Assembly: GCA_025056865.1 (NCBI GenBank)
Contig: JANWVO010000002.1
Location: 1-64,000, forward strand
Direction: 5' to 3'
DNA length: 64,000 nt
Source: Bryobacteraceae bacterium
GTDB taxonomy: Bacteria; Acidobacteriota; Terriglobia; Bryobacterales; Bryobacteraceae
The position numbers and the translations under genes were made by a program. The notes below the pieces were generated by a model that made no database searches, had not been told where the DNA came from, and saw only the letters and a list, made by a program, of their open reading frames with translations. Shown here one piece after another: positions 4,998 through 47,221 of the stretch. How positions within the stretch are numbered: the first letter of the stretch is position 1; each line of letters starts with the position of its first letter.

Positions 4998-5495
4998 ATG
5001 CCAGATTCGACGACAGCCGCGCCCCCATCCGTCCGGGACAACCGCGAGAAGATGCTCGAGCGGGCGATGTCGCGCCATCAGTACTCGGGCGACGCCCTGA
5101 TCGAGGTCCTCCATGCCGCCCAGGAGCTTTACGGCTATCTCTCCCCCCCTCTGCTGCGGATGATCGCCCGGAAACTGAAGCTGCCTCCCAGCCGGGTGCT
5201 CGGGGTGGCCACGTTCTACCATTTCTTCTCCCTGAAACCAAAAGGCGAACACTTCTTCCAGGTTTGCACCGGCACAGCCTGCTACGTCGCCGGCGCGCCG
5301 GCGTTGATCGAAGTGCTGGAGAGGCGCTGCTGCAAGTCCGGGGCCACAAGCCCGGATGGCAAGGTCACGGTGCAGGCAGTGCGCTGCATCGGATCCTGCG
5401 GACTCGCGCCTGCCGTCATCTATGACGGCAGGATTCTCGCGCGTGTCACGCCGGATCAGCTCAACCAGGAACTGGACCGCATAGGAGTGCCATGA
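4998..5495 (+). CDS. hoxE: NAD-linked [NiFe] hydrogenase, HoxE (NuoE-like) subunit
   Basis: 165 residues, a thioredoxin-fold [2Fe-2S] protein homologous to complex I NuoE. N-terminal helical part: [18 protein letters not shown]. Cluster ligands are the CTGTACY pair and the CIGSCGLAP pair in the C-terminal half. In HoxEFUYH enzymes HoxE and HoxFU form the diaphorase module that passes electrons between NAD(H) and the hydrogenase module in the cytoplasm. It is the first gene of a five-gene run. Its stop overlaps the hoxF start as ATGA (5492-5495). The ATG at 4998 has only a weak upstream AGG. An ATG at 5052 is an alternative start, but the retained N-terminus matches the usual family length. 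Confidence 0.88.
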
Positions 5496-7132
5496 CGATC
5501 GAGGAGCTTTGCGAACGCCAGCAGAAAGAGCTGGAGCGGCAGGCCAGCCTGAGGCGCAGGATCGCCTGCTGCACGGCAGCCGGATGCATGTCCTGCGGCG
5601 CAGACTCGGTGCGCCGGGCAGTGAAGGCCGAAATCGAGGCCCGCGGACTGGCCAACGAAGTGGAGGTATGCGGCACCGGCTGCATGGGCCTGTGCAGCCG
5701 CGGCGTGCTGGTGCGGACCTCTGACGATGGTTCGCTGTGGGGGCAGGTGACCGCTGCCGACGCCGCGGCCCTCGTCTCGGAGCAGCCGGCAGCGTCCGCG
5801 GAGCTGGCCGCCCGCCGGATCGATACCAACGCTGCCTTTTTCACCCGGCAGCTCAGGATCGTGCTGGCCAACAGCGGGGTGGCGGACCCGGAGCGGCTGG
5901 ACGACTACATCGCCACCGGGGGATACCAGGCCCTGGCGAAAGCCCTTTCCGAAATGACGCCCGAGGAAGTGATCGCCGAAGTCCGCAGGAGCGGCCTCCG
6001 GGGCCGGGGCGGTGCAGGCTACCCGACGGCGCTGAAGTGGGAGCTGGTCGCCAAGCAGAAATCCACGCCGAAATACGTCATCTGCAATGCCGACGAGGGC
6101 GACCCCGGAGCCTTCATGGACCGCAGCGTGCTCGAGGGGGATCCGCATCGCGTGCTGGAAGGCATGGCAATCGCCGGTTACGCCGTCGGCGCGCAGCAGG
6201 GCTTCATCTACGTCCGCGGCGAGTACACGCTTGCCATCCAGCGCCTTCAGACGGCGATCCGGCAGGCCGAGCGCGAGCAGCTTCTCGGAAACCGCATCTT
6301 CGGCGACAACTTCCAGTTCCGCATCGACCTGCGCATCGGCGCCGGCGCGTTCGTCTGCGGCGAGGAAACCGCCCTCATCGCCTCGATTGAAGGCAAACGC
6401 GGGCAGCCCCGCCAGCGGCCTCCCTATCCGCCCGAGTCCGGGCTGTGGGGGCAGCCCACGCTGATCAACAACGTGGAGACGTTCGCCAACATCGCCCCCA
6501 TCATCCGCAACGGAGGCGACTGGTTTGCCCGCATCGGCACGCCCACCAGCACGGGCACGAAAGTCTTCGCTCTGGCAGGGAAGATCGCCAACACGGGCCT
6601 CATCGAGGTGCCCATGGGGATTTCGCTGCGCGAGATCGTCTTCGACATCGGCGGCGGCGTCCCTGGCGGGCGGTTCAAGGCGGCCCAGACGGGCGGCCCC
6701 TCCGGAGGCTGCATCCCCGCCGAATACCTGGATACGCCGGTCGACTACGAATCGCTCGCCGCCATTGGTTCGATCATGGGCTCGGGCGGCCTGATCATCA
6801 TGGACGACCAGTCTTCCATGGTCGACGTGGCCCGCTTCTTCATGGAGTTCTGCATGGAGGAGAGCTGCGGCAAGTGCATCCCGTGCCGGGCGGGCACCGT
6901 GCAGATGCACGATATCCTCTCGCGCCTGCTGCGCGGCGAAGCCACGCGGCTGGACCTGGAAATGCTGGAACGGCTCGCCACGCTGCTGAAGGAGACCAGC
7001 CTCTGCGGCCTGGGCATCACCGCCCCCAATCCGGTCATCAGCACCCTGAAGTATTTCCGTCACGAGTACGAGGCGCTGCTTGCCGGCGCCGCCCAGGAGA
7101 AGTGCCATGAGCGTCAAGACGCTGACCATTGA
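5492..7132 (+). CDS. hoxF: NAD-linked [NiFe] hydrogenase, diaphorase subunit HoxF (NuoF-like)
   Basis: 546 residues. The N-terminal about 110 residues form a second thioredoxin-like [2Fe-2S] domain with Cys in [11 protein letters not shown] and CGTGCMGLC. The NuoF core follows: the NADH-binding glycine-rich loop [13 protein letters not shown], the FMN-site motif [11 protein letters not shown], the [18 protein letters not shown] block, and the C-terminal [4Fe-4S] site [12 protein letters not shown] with a fourth Cys in TSLCGLG. It oxidises NADH or reduces NAD+. The start codon overlaps the hoxE stop, so translation is coupled. The last 26 bases overlap hoxU. The domain order matches HoxF and also the NADH subunit of electron-bifurcating hydrogenases, but the hoxYH genes downstream decide for the bidirectional Hox type. 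Confidence 0.9.
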
Positions 7133-7835
7133 TGGCAGGCCCGTCACTGGCCGGGCGGGCGAAACCATATTCAACGTCGCCTGGGATAACGGCATCCGCA
7201 TCCCGCGGCTGTGCCATGTGGGCGGGCTCACCGATGTCGGAGCCTGCCGGCTCTGCCTCGTGGAAATCGAAGGGCAGAACCGGCTGGCGGCAGCCTGCCT
7301 GACGCCCGTCGAGGAAGGCATGGTTGTCCGTACCCAAACCGACAGGCTGCGCGAGCACCGCAGGCTGCTGGTGGAACTGCTGCTGGCCGAGCGCAACCAC
7401 GTCTGCTCGGTGTGCGTGATGAACGGAGCCTGCGAGCTTCAGGACCTGGCCGCCGAGCTGGGCGTCGACCACGTCCGGCTCCGCTACCTGCACCCGAAGC
7501 TGGAGGTCGACACCAGCCACGAGCGCTTCGGCATGGACCACAACCGCTGCGTCCTCTGCACGCGGTGCGTGCGCGTCTGCGACGAGGTCGAAGGAGCGCA
7601 CACCAAGGACGTGGCAGGCCGCGGCACCCTGTCGCGAATCATTCACGACCTTGACCAGCCCTGGGGCGAGTCCGACACCTGCACCGGCTGCGGCAAGTGC
7701 GTGCACGTGTGCCCGACCGGCGCCCTGTTCACCAAGGGCAAGTCGGTCATGGAGATGATCAAGGACCGCCGCTTTCTGAAATACATCGTCACGGCGCGGG
7801 AGAGACGGCAATGGATCCTGCAGGAAGAAAAGTGA
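7107..7835 (+). CDS. hoxU: NAD-linked [NiFe] hydrogenase, HoxU (NuoG-like) electron-transfer subunit
   Basis: 242 residues. Begins with a plant-type [2Fe-2S] domain ([16 protein letters not shown] and a later Cys). Next is the His-Cys3 [4Fe-4S] motif [14 protein letters not shown]. Then two ferredoxin-type [4Fe-4S] sites, [13 protein letters not shown] and [14 protein letters not shown]. This is the cluster set of HoxU and of the NuoG N-terminus, which wires HoxF to HoxY. The ATG at 7107 is chosen because AGGAGA (7095-7100) precedes it and the product starts [10 protein letters not shown] like its relatives. This gives a 26-base overlap with hoxF. Its stop is inside the hoxY start (GTGA at 7832-7835). 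Confidence 0.9.
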
Positions 7836-8353
7836 GGGTCGCCACGGCCTGGCTGAGCGGCTGCTCGGGATGCCACATGTCGCTGCTGGACATGGACGAG
7901 CGGCTGCTCGAGCTGGCCAGCCGCATCGAGCTGATGGCTTCGCCGCTGACCGACTGGAAGGAATTCCCGGAGACCGATGTCACGCTGGTGGAGGGCGCTG
8001 TCGGCAACGTGGAGCAACTGGAACTGATCCGCCTCATCCGCTCGCGCTCGCGTCTGCTGGTGAGCCTCGGCGATTGCGCCATCACTGGCAATGTGCCCGC
8101 CATGCGGAACGTCTACCCGGTGGAGGATCTGCTGCGGGAGTCTTATGAGGCGCAGAGCGCGCCGGTCATCGGCGTGCCCGGCCGCGGGTCGGCCGTGCCG
8201 CGGCTGATCGACCGCGTCCTGCAAGTGCACCAGGTGGTGGAAGTGGACTATTTCCTGCCCGGATGCCCGCCCGATGCCGGCGCGATTTACGAGTTGCTCG
8301 CCGCCCTGTGCGAGGGCAGGCAGCCGGCCCTGGAAACACGGAGGTTTGGCTGA
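7832..8353 (+). CDS. hoxY: NAD-linked [NiFe] hydrogenase small subunit HoxY
   Basis: 173 residues from a GTG start. Carries the proximal [4Fe-4S] ligands of the short Hox-type small subunit: [11 protein letters not shown] near the N-terminus, [10 protein letters not shown], and LPGCPPD toward the C-terminus. There is no Tat signal, consistent with a cytoplasmic enzyme. I chose GTG 7832: GGAAG (7823-7827) precedes it, it makes a GTGA overlap with the hoxU stop like the other junctions here, and the product starts at [13 protein letters not shown] as expected. An in-frame ATG at 7811 would add seven residues. The stop overlaps the hoxH start as TGATG. Confidence 0.88.
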
Positions 8354-9774
8354 TGGCGAAGCGCATTGTCATCGACCCGGTCACGCGCATCGAGGGCCAC
8401 GCCAGAATCTCGATCTATGTCAATGAAGCCGGCGAGGTCGAGGCGGCCCAGTTTCATGTCGGAGAATTCCGCGGGTTCGAAAAATTCGCCCAGGGCCGCC
8501 CGTTCCATGAGATGCCGGGCCTGATGGCCCGCACCTGCGGCATCTGCCCGGTGAGCCATGTGCTGGCCGGATCCAGGGCTGGCGACATGCTGCTCGGTCT
8601 CGACCCCCCGCCGGCCGCGCGGGCCCAGAGGCGGCTGCTCAATTACGCGCAGCACTTGCAGTCCCACGCCCTCAGCTTCTTCTATCTGTCCTGCCCGGAT
8701 CTTCTGCTCGGTTTTGATAGCCCGCCCGAGCGGCGCCACATTCTTGGCCTGGCCGAGGCGGATCCCGGCTTCGTGCGGCGCGGCGTGCGCCTGCGCCAGT
8801 TCGGCCAGACCATCATTGAGACCATTGGCGGCCGCAGGGTCCACCCGCCCGGCAGCGTCCCCGGCGGCATGACCCGGCCACTCGAACGCGAGGAGGTGGA
8901 ACGCATCCGCCAGTGGTTGCCCGAGGCGCTGGAATCGGTCCAGATGGCCCTGGACCGCTTCAAGGCCCTGCTGGGCCAGTTCCAGGAAGAAATCGCCTCC
9001 CTCGGAGACTTCCCCTCGCTCTTCATGGGCATGGTGAATGGCCAGGGCGAGCTCGAAATTTACGACGGAGCGATCCGTTTTGTCGACGCCGCCGGCAATC
9101 TTGTGGCCGACAACCTCGATCCGGCCCGCTACTTCACCTACATCGGCGAGGCTAGCGAGGAGTGGTCCTACATGAAGTTCCCTTACTACAGGCCGCTCGG
9201 CTACCCCGGCGGCATGTATCGCGTGGGGCCGCTCGCCCGCCTGAACGTGTGCACGCGCGTTGGCACGCCGCTGGCAGACCGCGAGCTGCGCGAGTTCCGC
9301 CAACGCGCCGGCCGCCCGGCCTGCGCCACCTTCCACTACCACTGGGCCCGCCTCATCGAGATGCTGCACGCGGTGGAGCGGATCGACGAGATCACCGCCG
9401 ACGACGTGCTGCTTGATCCGCGCGTGCGCGCCCGCGCCGGCCAGAACGCCAACGTCGGCATTGGCGCCTGCGAAGCCCCGCGCGGCACGCTGTTCCATCA
9501 CTACGAGGTGGACGACACGGGCCTTGTCCGGCGCGCCAACCTGCTTATCGCCACCGGCCAGAACAATCTCGCCATGAACCAGGCCGTCACCCAGGCCGCG
9601 AAACGGTTCGTGCGCGCCGATGATCCGGCAGAAGGCGGCCTGAACCGCGTCGAGGCTGCCATCCGCTGCTTCGATCCCTGCCTGTCCTGCGCCACGCACG
9701 CCTTCGGGCGCATCCCCCTGCTGGTGGAATTCCGCCGCCGGGATGGCAGCCTCCTCCGCAGGCTGCCTGCCTGA
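8353..9774 (+). CDS. hoxH: NAD-linked [NiFe] hydrogenase large (catalytic) subunit HoxH
   Basis: 473 residues. The Ni-Fe ligands are Cys62 and Cys65 in [11 protein letters not shown] and Cys443 and Cys446 in DPCLSCATH. After His449 there is a 24-residue tail starting AFGRIPLL. Family precedent is that such a tail is cut off by a dedicated endopeptidase (HoxW type) once Ni is inserted. It catalyses reversible H2 oxidation coupled to NAD+ through HoxEFUY. No hyp or hoxW maturation gene is present in this window, so these must lie elsewhere. The gene is last in the operon and is followed by a GC-rich hairpin (9805-9832) before a convergent receptor gene. Confidence 0.92.
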
Positions 9775-17218: not shown

Positions 17219-18631
17219 TCATGAGGCCGGCGCGCGGTGGAAGACCTGCGCACGGAACACCCACAGCTTCGCCTCCGGATTCCGCCACGCGCCTGCCGGA
17301 AGGCCCGCCTTGTGCGCCAGCGCATCCAGAAACCACTCTGCGCTGACTCTGCGCTCGCGGCCCACCTGCGGCAGCAGCAGCCCGCGGCGGCCCCAGCATT
17401 CGATGTAGGCGCCATGCTCGCCCAGCCGGAAGCGGCGCGGATCGGGCAGCCGCCGGAACGGCGTCAGGATGGAAATCTCGATGTCGAGATCCGCCGGCGC
17501 GGTCGCGCGCGTCGGAAACCGCGGGTCGTGCAGCGCGCTCAGCGCCAGCTCGGGCACGGCGGCGCGGTAGGTCTCCTCGCTGCCCAGCCGCCCGATGCAG
17601 CCGAACAGCTCGCCCTTCTGGTGCAGGCTCACGAAGACGCCTCCCCGGCGGTCCAGCTCTTCCAGCTCCGCATCGCTTTCCACCGGGCGCTCGATGCCCC
17701 TCTCGCGCAACTGCGCCAGCGTCGCTGCCGCACTGTCGAGCAGCGCCTGCTGCGCCGCTTCGCCGAGATGGAACGAGCTTTCGCGGAAATAGCCGAGCGC
17801 CGCATAGCCCACCGAGAGCGAGTAATCGCCATTCAGGTCGCCGCTGGTCATGTAGTCAAGCGTCGCCTGGAAGATCTCCTCCTCGCCCGGCAGGTGCGCG
17901 AGGATTTCCAGCAGCAGGCTCACCGGCGCCACGCCGCATGTGGTCGACCCGTTCCGGCGCAACTCGGCCAGGAAGAACGCGGGATCCAGGCTCGAGGCCG
18001 CGTCGATCACTTCGCGGTCCAGCTCGTGCAGGTTGGCCGCCGTCCCGCTGTCGAGCGGAAAGGGCGTGAAGCCGAAGCGGCGTCCGTAGTGGGTCAGGTC
18101 CGTGCTGGCCACCAGTACATCCCCCGGCCGCAGCGCCGCCGCGATCCTTTGGGCCGCCTCGCGGCGCACCCGCTCATGCGCCGAGCCCACGTAAAGCGGC
18201 GCCACCGGCACGCCCGGCAGGAGCCGGTCGAGGAAAGGAAGCTGGATCTCGAGCGAGTGATCGCACGCCGCCGTGGGCGGCAGCGCCGGGAAATCGAATC
18301 CTGTCAGATCCACCGGGACGCGCCCGAGCGGCGTGGCGTAGGCCCCGATGCGCGGCATGATCACTTCGGCCGGGCCGCCCGCGTGCAGGAACCCGAGCAT
18401 CACCACGCGCGACGGCCGGGCCGCCGCCACGTGCCGCCAGGAGGCTGCCGCCACCGCGCCGGAGTAGGCCAGGCCTGCGTGCGGAACCACAGCGGCCAGC
18501 GCTCCGGGCAGCAGCGCCCTGCCGGTTCTCTCCTCCGATGTTTCCAACAATTCGTCGAGCAGATGTTCCAGCTCGGCCGGCGCTGCCGGATACCACGAGC
18601 CGGCGTAAGGCGTCGCGAATGTGGCCGTCAT
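17219..18631 (-). CDS. AmmeMemoRadiSam system fusion: Memo (B) + AMMECR1 (A) domains
   Basis: 470 residues. Residues 1 to about 275 are a Memo domain related to class III extradiol dioxygenases. His51 (VVPHAGLAYSG), His83 (GFLHAGG) and a Cys in STTCGVAPVS correspond to the metal site of human MEMO1, and DHSLEIQLPF is also present. Residues from about 285 to 470 are an AMMECR1 domain (GVFVSLHQKGELFGCIGRLG, ALHDPRFPTR, DIEISILTPFRRL, GLLLPQV). In many genomes these are two separate genes beside a radical SAM gene. Here they are one polypeptide, directly downstream (9 bp, GGAGGAG ribosome binding site) of that radical SAM gene. The biochemical role of the system is not established. The conserved trio suggests a shared modification reaction in the cytoplasm. 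Confidence 0.85.
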   Translation of the reverse strand: MTATFATPYAGSWYPAAPAELEHLLDELLETSEERTGRALLPGALAAVVPHAGLAYSGAVAAASWRHVAAARPSRVVMLGFLHAGGPAEVIMPRIGAYATPLGRVPVDLTGFDFPALPPTAACDHSLEIQLPFLDRLLPGVPVAPLYVGSAHERVRREAAQRIAAALRPGDVLVASTDLTHYGRRFGFTPFPLDSGTAANLHELDREVIDAASSLDPAFFLAELRRNGSTTCGVAPVSLLLEILAHLPGEEEIFQATLDYMTSGDLNGDYSLSVGYAALGYFRESSFHLGEAAQQALLDSAAATLAQLRERGIERPVESDAELEELDRRGGVFVSLHQKGELFGCIGRLGSEETYRAAVPELALSALHDPRFPTRATAPADLDIEISILTPFRRLPDPRRFRLGEHGAYIECWGRRGLLLPQVGRERRVSAEWFLDALAHKAGLPAGAWRNPEAKLWVFRAQVFHRAPAS

Positions 18632-18640
18632 GGCTCCTCC

Positions 18641-19711
18641 TCAGGCCGCCCGTTGCGGCACGCTCCAGAAGCCCGCGATTCCGGCCCCGCACGACGGGCA
18701 CCGCCCGTCTGGCGCGATCCGGTTGGACAGCACGCGGAACCCGTGGCGCTCGATGAGCGTTGCGCCGCAGCTCCAGCAGCGCGTGTTCTCCAGCTCGCCC
18801 AGCCGCCCGGGCAGGTTGCCCGCGTACACGTAGCGCAGCCCCGCCTCGCGCCCGGCGCGCACCGCGCGCAGCAGGTCGGCGGCGGAGGTGGGCCGCGGGT
18901 CCGTCATCTTGTAGTCGGGGTGGAACGCCGTCACATGCCACGGAATGTCGGGCGAAATGGAGGCGAGGAAGCGCGCGATCTGGCCAAGCTCCTCGTCGCT
19001 GTCGTTGAAGCCCGGCACTACCAGCGTTACTACCTCCAGCCAGAAGCCCATTTCGTGGATGCGCCGGATCGAGTCCAGCACCGGCTCCAGCCGCCCGCCC
19101 AGCCTGCGGTAGTTTTCGTCCCGGAACGACTTCAGGTCCACCTTGAACAGGTCGAGCCACGGGCGCAGATACGCAAGCACCTCGGGCGTGGCGTTGCCGT
19201 TGGAAACGAAGCCCGTCGCCAGCCCGTGCCGCCGCGCCAGGCGGAAGACCTCCACCGCCCACTCGGCGGTGATGAGCGGCTCGTTGTAGGTGCTGACGAC
19301 GCAGGCCGACTGCGTGTGCAACGCCTGCTCGACGATCTCTTCCGCGGTGACGGGGTGGAAGTAAAGGTCCGCGCGCGGATCACGCAGGGCCTGCGAGCTG
19401 AGCCAGTTCTGGCAATAGGCGCAGTGCAGGTCGCAGCCGAGCATGCCGAAGCTCAGCGCGCGCGCCCCCGGCAGCGCGTGGAAAAACGGCTTCTTCTCGA
19501 TCGGATCCACATGCAGGGCGTTGACGTAGCCGTACGGCGCCATCAGCCGCCCGTTGTCGTTGAAGCGGACCTTGCACACGCCGGGCAGGCCCGGGAAGAT
19601 GGGGCAGCGATGCCCGCACGCCAGGCAGCGGATGCGCCCATCGCCCAACGGCTCGGCCAGCGGCGACTCCCGCACATGCCGCGCCAGCTCCTCGGCAAGC
19701 GTCCCAGCCAT
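18641..19711 (-). CDS. amrS: AmmeMemoRadiSam system radical SAM enzyme
   Basis: 356 residues. The radical SAM motif is Cys93-x3-Cys97-x2-Cys100 in GCDLHCAYCQNW. Before it is a conserved cysteine set (Cys29, 32, 36 and 46 in CLACGHRCPIFPGLPGVC), as in pyruvate formate-lyase-activating-like relatives of this family. The C-terminus adds a zinc-ribbon pair (CWSCG, CPSCG). The enzyme should bind [4Fe-4S] and SAM to start a radical reaction. The substrate is unknown. It forms an operon with the Memo-AMMECR1 fusion downstream. The ATG at 19711 is the natural start, just after a GC-poor stretch. Confidence 0.88.
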   Translation of the reverse strand: MAGTLAEELARHVRESPLAEPLGDGRIRCLACGHRCPIFPGLPGVCKVRFNDNGRLMAPYGYVNALHVDPIEKKPFFHALPGARALSFGMLGCDLHCAYCQNWLSSQALRDPRADLYFHPVTAEEIVEQALHTQSACVVSTYNEPLITAEWAVEVFRLARRHGLATGFVSNGNATPEVLAYLRPWLDLFKVDLKSFRDENYRRLGGRLEPVLDSIRRIHEMGFWLEVVTLVVPGFNDSDEELGQIARFLASISPDIPWHVTAFHPDYKMTDPRPTSAADLLRAVRAGREAGLRYVYAGNLPGRLGELENTRCWSCGATLIERHGFRVLSNRIAPDGRCPSCGAGIAGFWSVPQRAA

Positions 19712-19842: not shown

Positions 19843-19870
19843 AGGCCGCTCCGGCCTTGCGGAGCGGCCT
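19843..19870 (-). terminator. intrinsic-like terminator downstream of katG
   Basis: Perfect 11-bp stem AGGCCGCTCCG / CGGAGCGGCCT with a 6-base loop, 28 bases past the katG stop. Read on the minus strand it is followed by TCGCCTTTTGG. On the plus strand it is followed by TTCTT. The hairpin after pnp (22304-22327) has almost the same tail. Confidence 0.65.
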
Positions 19871-46556: not shown

Positions 46557-46627
46557 ACCCGCCCGCCGCTTGCCTCCCGCCCGCCGCGCGCCCCACAATG
46601 ACGGATGAACGCCTGCCGGAGGGCCGG

Positions 46628-47221
46628 ATGCTGAAGACGCTTGCCGAATACGAAGAACTCGCCCGCGCCGCCCACGGCCACCTTTGCGCCGGCCAGATCC
46701 TCGGCATCCGCATGGCCCTGCACGGCCTCGCGCTGCTCGGCCTCGACGACCCGCTCGGCGCCCACCGCAAGCGGCTCGTCACCTTCGTCGAAATCGACCG
46801 CTGCGCCACCGACGCCATCATGGTCGTCACCGGCTGCCGCCTCGGAAAGCGCGCGCTGAAATTCTTCGATTTCGGCAAAATGGCAGCCACCTTTTGCGAT
46901 CTCGAAACCGGCCGGGCCGTCCGCGTCGCCGCGCTGGAATCCGGCCGCGACCGCGCCCGCGAGCTCTTTCCCCACATCGAAAAGCCGGCCGATCAGCAGA
47001 TGGAGGCTTACCGCATCCTGCCACCCGAAGAGCTCTTCCGGTGGGAGTGGGTCGACGTGCGCCTCCTGCCGCAGGACCTGCCAGGCTTCAAAGGCCCGCG
47101 CGTGTTCTGCGATGCCTGCGGCGAACGCATCAACTTCGGCCGGGAAGTCCGGCAGGAGGGCCGCACGCTCTGCCGCGCCTGCGCCGGCCAGCGCTACTAT
47201 GATCCGCTGCCACATCACTGA
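46628..47221 (+). CDS. FmdE-family protein with C-terminal zinc ribbon
   Basis: 197 residues. Resembles the small FmdE (formylmethanofuran dehydrogenase subunit E-like) domain: AAHGHLCAGQILGIRMALHGL, VTFVEIDRCATDAIMVVTGCRLGKR and FDFGKMAATF. The C-terminus has a four-Cys ribbon (CDACGERI, LCRACAG). The ATG at 46628 is preferred because GGAGGG precedes it by 4-5 bases and the product then starts as relatives do. An upstream ATG at 46598 adds ten residues. Such stand-alone FmdE proteins occur outside methanogens and their reaction is unknown. Its end overlaps thiE by 23 bases. Confidence 0.78.
   Translation: MLKTLAEYEELARAAHGHLCAGQILGIRMALHGLALLGLDDPLGAHRKRLVTFVEIDRCATDAIMVVTGCRLGKRALKFFDFGKMAATFCDLETGRAVRVAALESGRDRARELFPHIEKPADQQMEAYRILPPEELFRWEWVDVRLLPQDLPGFKGPRVFCDACGERINFGREVRQEGRTLCRACAGQRYYDPLPHH

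Follow-up and report, generated by a model that had tools for sequence, protein, structure and literature searches.

The 64,000-nucleotide window analysed here (contig JANWVO010000002.1 of a Bryobacteraceae bacterium, assembly GCA_025056865.1) contains a two-gene locus in which two components of the AmmeMemoRadiSam system, protein B (Memo) and protein A (AMMECR1), are fused into one chain and adjoin the gene for their radical SAM (S-adenosylmethionine) partner, hereafter rS. Our comparisons suggest that this AmmeMemoRadiSam unit is cytosolic and of mixed descent, a chimera of a fusion from an exported lineage and an rS that lies outside the exported rS; we assign this reading a probability of roughly 0.57. 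On this evidence two things are new, the mixed origin of the cytosolic unit and the lineage of exported radical SAM systems that lies behind it: among the titles and abstract openings listed from the open-licence literature there was no report of the trio's reaction, of an exported radical SAM enzyme or of a mixed origin, prior reports being nevertheless possible. Relatives of Memo and AMMECR1 range from archaea to humans, and the available part of PMC5502304 describes human AMMECR1 as a disease gene. The exported ancestry suggested by comparison would narrow the possible roles of the human relatives of both proteins. Below, X denotes the clade of the window and Y its sister type, L-numbers are loci and G-numbers are the genomes compared.

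Membership in AmmeMemoRadiSam, which the first-pass annotation of the locus had proposed, is secure by profile scores: all three components exceed the curated NCBIfam cut-offs, with 179.8 bits for the Memo part against TIGR04336 (cut-off 26), 112.6 bits for the AMMECR1 part against TIGR04335 (cut-off 99) and 279.5 bits for rS against TIGR04337 (cut-off 220). In Pfam, the AMMECR1 domain scores 114.3 bits (gathering threshold 25) and presents the GCxG core as G344, C345 and G347, and the radical SAM domain scores 76.6 bits (cut-off 29.5), with its CX3CX2C motif at C93, C97 and C100. The system differs from the usual description in having A and B on one chain, which is apparently of the exported lineage, with an rS that lies outside exported rS.

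The putative metal site of Memo is recognisable by alignment: H51, H83 and C232 of the window correspond to H49, H81 and C244 of human MEMO1 (7kq8, 3bcz), which are metal ligands according to the available part of PMC11081632. These three residues are unchanged in all 145 fused Memo domains (X, Y and other fusions); among 43 stand-alone B proteins both histidines are invariant and the cysteine is kept in 42, the remaining one having Asp. Among 105 rS relatives, taken at 300 bits or more and at least 90% of the model, C29, C32, C36 and C46 and the CX3CX2C cysteines never vary, and a further set not mentioned in the first-pass annotation (C312, C315, C338 and C341) is kept in 105, 104, 104 and 104. 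The AMMECR1 domain retains G344, D369, R371, F372, G407, L420, P421 and K441 in 154 of 154 sequences, and C345 and G347 in 153 each. The residue preceding the GCxG core, in a loop whose motif name we take to be LRGCIG, is Arg in all 112 domains outside X and in 21 of 42 inside X. It is Phe343 in the window protein. The earlier statement that the Memo site, the radical SAM motif and the N-terminal Cys set are intact stands, with this lost Arg as one correction.

The Memo domain bears on the descent of the fusion. A tree built by a quick method, with 20 of the 42 X rows used for residue counts, separates all fusions except L243 from ordinary stand-alone B (support 100; three unfused B fall inside the fusion clade), and places X within the fusions, as sister to Y (100) and then beside the Planctomycetota fusions L182 and L185 (83). 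In a more careful tree of 53 rows, stand-alone B occupy one side of a branch supported at 100/100. Approximately unbiased (AU) tests, run on hand-picked subsets (53 rows for Memo, 44 for rS), reject placing either X (p = 9.7e-5) or X plus Y (p = 0.030) together with stand-alone B. The same affinity is visible in a loop: H181 and D205 are separated by 21-24 residues in X (20/20), in Y (9/9) and in 12 of 96 other fusions, and by 10 residues in the remaining 84 and in all but three of the 43 stand-alone B, those three being divergent Memo proteins. Two of the 12 long-loop fusions are X-like (L119 and L138, labelled as other fusions in the Memo tree and the loop count and as X in the signal and residue counts); the other ten comprise three Planctomycetota, two Verrucomicrobiota, one Kiritimatiellota and four others, and eight of these ten pass the export-signal rule described below. 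A long loop also follows H192 in human MEMO1, which has been solved as a single-domain chain, unlike the fusion in the window.

The partner enzyme tells a different story. In the rS tree, a branch supported at 100/100 separates the exported rS from the X and cytosolic rS. Within the X-type rS clade are also the enzymes of G084 and G210, two genomes from another family of the same class that encode A and B separately, and the enzyme of G007, which has an exported-type fusion.

Export was judged from the N-termini. By eye, many fusions have Sec or lipoprotein-like starts and many rS have RRxFL-type starts, and we counted signals with a simple pattern, written after these N-termini had been inspected and applied to ATG and GTG starts (duplicates, B fragments, B below 200 bits, and rS below 300 bits or without the first model positions were left out). 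By this rule a signal is carried by none of 40 X fusions, 64 of 98 fusions outside X and 7 of 9 Y fusions, and by none of 39 X rS, 39 of 55 exported-type rS (35 of them resembling twin-arginine, or Tat, signals) and none of 8 cytosolic rS; its calls on 4 of 39 stand-alone B and 1 of 8 stand-alone A gauge its false-call rate. Neither the window's fusion nor its rS bears such a signal. The 51 exported-type rS scanned have the consensus start MxxxRRxFL, and an rS from Altiarchaeota exceeds the NCBIfam Tat-signal cut-off (22.4 bits against 16.7); the Tat assignment draws mainly on the pattern of N-terminal starts. TIGR04337 proteins with Tat-like starts, by eye or by rule, and with intact cluster motifs are found at L125, L144, L141, L206, L211, L254 and other loci, where they adjoin signal-bearing Memo-AMMECR1 fusions in what is apparently an extracytoplasmic radical SAM system. 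Some fusions in Bacteroidota and Zixibacteria (L203, L212, L237, L246 and L255) have no apparent signal, so export may have been lost more than once.

The exported fused systems, exemplified by L125, L144, L206 and L211, share with the window the B-A order, the Cys sets of rS and the metal-site residues; they differ from it in their Sec/lipoprotein-like and Tat-like signals and in extra partners. A membrane protein with a spermine-synthase domain lies within 6 kb in 24 of 74 named loci outside X, and in 22 of the 41 that also hold rS; such neighbours occur across phyla (L185, L187, L193, L199, L206, L209-L211, L219, L236 and others), and Pfam Spermine_synth was found in all four members tested, from four phyla. 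A DUF362 protein accompanies 9 of the 74 loci over the same distance. Some exported loci of the host's own family hold a Fer4_5-type membrane polyferredoxin and DUF6599, and five Omnitrophota loci share a protein of which one member, tested, is DsbD_2. These partners look like possible electron routes to the outside, and the conserved ones are concrete targets for knock-out. We see an even chance that a widespread extracytoplasmic system exists, consisting of a Tat-exported rS, a lipoprotein or secreted fusion, a membrane protein with a spermine-synthase domain, DUF362 and, in some lineages, membrane electron carriers, spread over bacteria and at least one archaeal metagenome-assembled genome (MAG), and that the window fusion returned from it to the cytosol to work with a cytosolic rS, one chemistry serving the cytosol and the outside alike. 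The supply of SAM and electrons to exported radical SAM enzymes becomes a question if such enzymes are real.

The history that we favour is thus that the Memo-AMMECR1 fusion would have descended from the exported-fusion lineage, lost its signal peptide and, once relocated, taken over, next to a cytosolic rS, the work of A and B as separate proteins. Several observations weigh against it. The AU test does not reject a grouping of the X rS with exported as against cytosolic rS (p = 0.16), so that they are placed outside the exported clade but not firmly beside any one sister group. The A tree, which includes 26 of about 95 non-X fused A domains, keeps X and Y together (99) but not inside the exported fusions; moreover, X sits on long branches, as does Y in the A and B trees. 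Two of the ten long-loop fusions outside X show no signal, the rule finds no signal in 34 of 98 fusions outside X or in 16 of 55 exported-type rS, some of them truly signal-free by eye, and the groups, like the rule, were defined after the data had been seen. The NCBIfam Tat model reaches an E value of 0.1 in at most 22 of 51 exported-type rS (of 54, L052, L256 and L257 being left out), an upper bound because the model is not among the 25 commonest families for those proteins. The trio is not obligate either, since G255, G314 and G354 carry Y fusions but no rS, and seven genomes of the host's family have rS without AMMECR1. Finally, these data identify no substrate.

Within the family, the unit is well conserved. 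The 470-residue protein finds matches in 74 of 150 genomes, of which 57 are full-length, in one frame and 45-100% identical; this count takes matches above 380 bits, outside which lie G350 (46%, 337 bits), G322 (two contig-end pieces) and G258. The full-length fusion is carried by two congeners whose genomes are single contigs, G344 (90%) and G389 (81%). For the fusion, the ratio of non-synonymous to synonymous substitution rates (dN/dS) is 0.10 against congener G344 and 0.35 against the more distant G372; for rS the two values are 0.13 and 0.24. An rS above cut-off is present in 56 of the 57 X genomes and adjoins the fusion in 38, two of which have a truncated rS gene, so the two proteins most likely share a task. 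In G341 the rS above cut-off is of the exported type, its X-type rS being cut by contig ends, and in G379 rS is seen as a fragment only. AMMECR1 matches came from 67 of the 150 family genomes, and no full-length stand-alone copy was found among them, the full-length domains all lying in frames of at least 464 aa; fragments or contig-end pieces occur in G266, G281, G294 and G322. Weak AMMECR1 matches lie within frames of about 1000 aa in G366 (C154) and G385 (C38).

Structure prediction bears on how A and B might cooperate. The AlphaFold model of the fusion (pLDDT 96.4; predicted template modelling score, pTM, 0.94) holds the two domains in what is predicted to be one fixed, rigid arrangement, which agrees with the earlier suggestion that they act in one complex. 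A contact with rS, for which structure prediction had been suggested, was not confirmed: when rS and the fusion were modelled as a single chain by reading through the stop codon, the pTM was 0.68 and the orientation is not trustworthy. VIA-align superimposes the fusion on iron-bound MEMO1 (Z score 35.5; 2.2 A over 274 residues, 26% identity) and on the archaeal AMMECR1 structure 1vaj (Z score 23.2; 1.8 A over 183 residues), which like 1zq7 and 1wsc was solved as a stand-alone protein, unlike the fused window protein with its Phe in place of the loop Arg. From the pairing of an exported-type fusion with a cytosolic rS it would follow that A and B function as a single body whose job is independent of the compartment, which limits the possible substrates. 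Since the trio also seems active outside the membrane, a protein, peptide or lipid would be a more likely substrate than tRNA or a CoA-type metabolite.

Our best guess for the activity is a two-step redox modification of a protein-like or lipid-like substrate. As a relative of the activases of glycyl-radical enzymes (GREs), rS would generate a 5'-deoxyadenosyl radical and start the modification; AMMECR1, rigid beside Memo, would then hand the same substrate to a mononuclear His2Cys iron site in Memo, which would carry out a second step, either redox or hydrolytic. This sequence of steps is tentative, and we hold it to be somewhat more likely wrong than right. Burroughs et al. 2019 reportedly proposed that Memo systems modify nucleotide bases or isoprenoids. 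That work is cited for Memo-Ammecr1 systems in the available part of PMC7159879. A nucleotide base is an unlikely substrate for the exported relatives if these are truly extracytoplasmic; a lipid or isoprenoid would still fit them, and the branches may differ in substrate. Taken as a whole we regard this proposal as unlikely, at about one chance in four.

A different origin for the fusion has also to be weighed, namely that the host lineage joined its own split B and A locally and that the likeness to exported fusions is a long-branch effect. The fusion has probably more than one origin, as the Dehalococcoidales case below indicates, the X branches are long, split B is rejected for X plus Y at p = 0.030 only, and the A tree does not put X and Y within the exported fusions. 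Set against this are the much firmer rejection of X alone with split B, the signals on most of the sister Y fusions, the long Memo loop common to ten fusions outside X (eight with a signal) but absent from 40 of the 43 split B, and the identical B-A order. We therefore consider a local fusion improbable and prefer descent from the exported lineage.

As for the chemistry of Memo alone, the VIA-align matches of the fusion to extradiol dioxygenases (Z scores of 12.8-16.8 over 213-226 residues) place Memo in the LigB-type fold and could be taken to mean that it is an oxygen-using dioxygenase, the more so as the host probably uses oxygen, having three matches to COX1-family oxidases. The His-His-Glu iron ligands of that family are not present here, Cys232 occupying the third position, and no such activity was found for MEMO1 according to the available part of PMC11081632. 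AMMECR1 is moreover among the marker genes of anaerobes, present in 50.66% of them against 3.38% of aerobes (available part of PMC13386939). This leaves a dioxygenase very unlikely. COX1-family oxidases are encoded in 145 of the 150 family genomes, so AmmeMemoRadiSam lives here in oxygen-equipped hosts.

For rS, the nearest match in the PDB by sequence as well as by fold is pyruvate formate-lyase (PFL) activase (3c8f, 8fo0), with which it shares the radical SAM core, and GREs co-occur with rS in the family (19 of 68 genomes with rS above cut-off against 2 of 82 others, p = 6e-6), so that rS might be a GRE activase and the fusion merely its neighbour. This candidate was rejected on the lack of a GRE in the host and we rate it as highly improbable: PF01228 has no match in the host genome or in four sampled congeners, 49 of the 68 rS genomes are without a GRE, rS misses the activase cut-offs widely (59.7 of 231.75 bits for TIGR02493) and has additional N- and C-terminal Cys sets unlike PFL activase, and the co-occurrence may merely mark low-oxygen life. 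Finally, a frameshift or assembly artefact joining two genes, which the first-pass annotation had named as a possible refutation, can be dismissed with near certainty given full-length X-type fusions in 57 of 150 family genomes, two of them single-contig congeners, and a dN/dS of 0.10.

The fusion as such is real but ordinary, being found in many phyla. In the phylum, a Memo protein is present in 165 of 247 genomes, and of 20 long-frame Memo candidates 14 are fused and 6 are not. A scan of named genomes gave at least 592 confirmed relatives; the best 80 of these, which were kept, include Planctomycetota, Verrucomicrobiota, Bacteroidota, Thermodesulfobacteriota, Omnitrophota, Zixibacteria, others and one Altiarchaeota MAG. 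Among the loci, L217 duplicates L121 and L240 duplicates L073, and the stand-alone B are a biased sample, mainly the top 30 of the best-part match list. The Dehalococcoidales fusion L243:5920-7296 is probably independent: its Memo domain groups among stand-alone B, so fusion probably arose at least twice.

The coordinates of the locus are collected in Table 1; the limits 17219-19711 given by the first-pass annotation are exact.

Table 1. Features of the AmmeMemoRadiSam locus, in window coordinates
Feature	Position	Strand	Basis or remark
Memo-AMMECR1 (B-A) fusion protein, 470 aa	17219..18631	(-)	Open reading frame (ORF); no signal peptide found
Memo (protein B) domain, residues 9-279, metal-site candidates H51, H83, C232	17795..18607	(-)	TIGR04336
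AMMECR1 (protein A) domain, residues 296-464, loop F343-G-C-I-G347, signature Arg replaced by Phe	17240..17746	(-)	TIGR04335
Memo loop H181 to D205, 23 residues between	18017..18091	(-)	Alignment of Memo domains
Radical SAM enzyme rS (TIGR04337), 356 aa	18641..19711	(-)	ORF; no signal peptide found
rS N-terminal Cys set C29, C32, C36, C46	19574..19627	(-)	Alignment
rS CX3CX2C motif C93, C97, C100	19412..19435	(-)	Alignment
rS C-terminal CX2C...CX2C set C312, C315, C338, C341, putatively zinc-ribbon-like	18689..18778	(-)	Alignment
Gap of 9 bp between rS and fusion genes; one TGA between, both in same frame	18632..18640	(-)	
GC-rich hairpin between katG and rS	19844..19869	(.)	May separate transcripts

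The same-strand genes upstream of rS are katG and polynucleotide phosphorylase, and the gene next downstream of the fusion is convergent. The hairpin between katG and rS has a z score of -1.8, with equally good folding in 10 of 200 shuffles, and was not among the terminators listed by a terminator scan. The two partner families tested, the spermine-synthase membrane protein and DUF362, are found in none of 24 window-type loci; many of the loci compared stop at contig ends. The pair therefore does stand alone here, with katG beyond the hairpin, as had been noted. The accompanying remark that neighbours give no hint of a substrate is right here. It applies less well to the exported paralogous systems with their recurrent partners, although these partners name no substrate. 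A Gfo/Idh-like cluster lies in 5 of 19 window-type neighbourhoods, several AT-rich loci not being counted; we take it to be a common family because other loci, and the rest of the window, have it too.

The host genome encodes one AMMECR1, two Memo proteins and one rS. Its second Memo (L270:6282-7541, contig C29) is divergent, as is that of L271:5694-7487; both have a long N-terminal extension that belongs to no Pfam family, and the tree sets them apart from the other Memo clades. None of the nine Y loci (L114-L118, L136, L137, L139 and L140; seven of the nine fusions with a signal by rule) holds an rS; their neighbours include YtxH-like, DUF948-like (below the Pfam cut-off), PHP-type phosphatase-like and recX-like genes, others being named by eye. 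Four X fusions whose loci have no rS (L177, L178, L180 and L184) are preceded by sigma-factor-like, anti-sigma-like and LTXXQ/Spy-like genes and followed by a nuclease-like gene, assignments made mostly by eye; Pfam gave no match for the anti-sigma-like neighbour.

Two further observations concern the rest of the window. Five genes at 5052-9774 (+) match the Pfam families 2Fe-2S thioredoxin-like, 51K, Fer2_4, 20K and NiFeSe_Hases, a set typical of an NAD-linked bidirectional [NiFe] hydrogenase, and at 46598-47221 (+) an FmdE domain precedes a DksA/TraR-type zinc finger.

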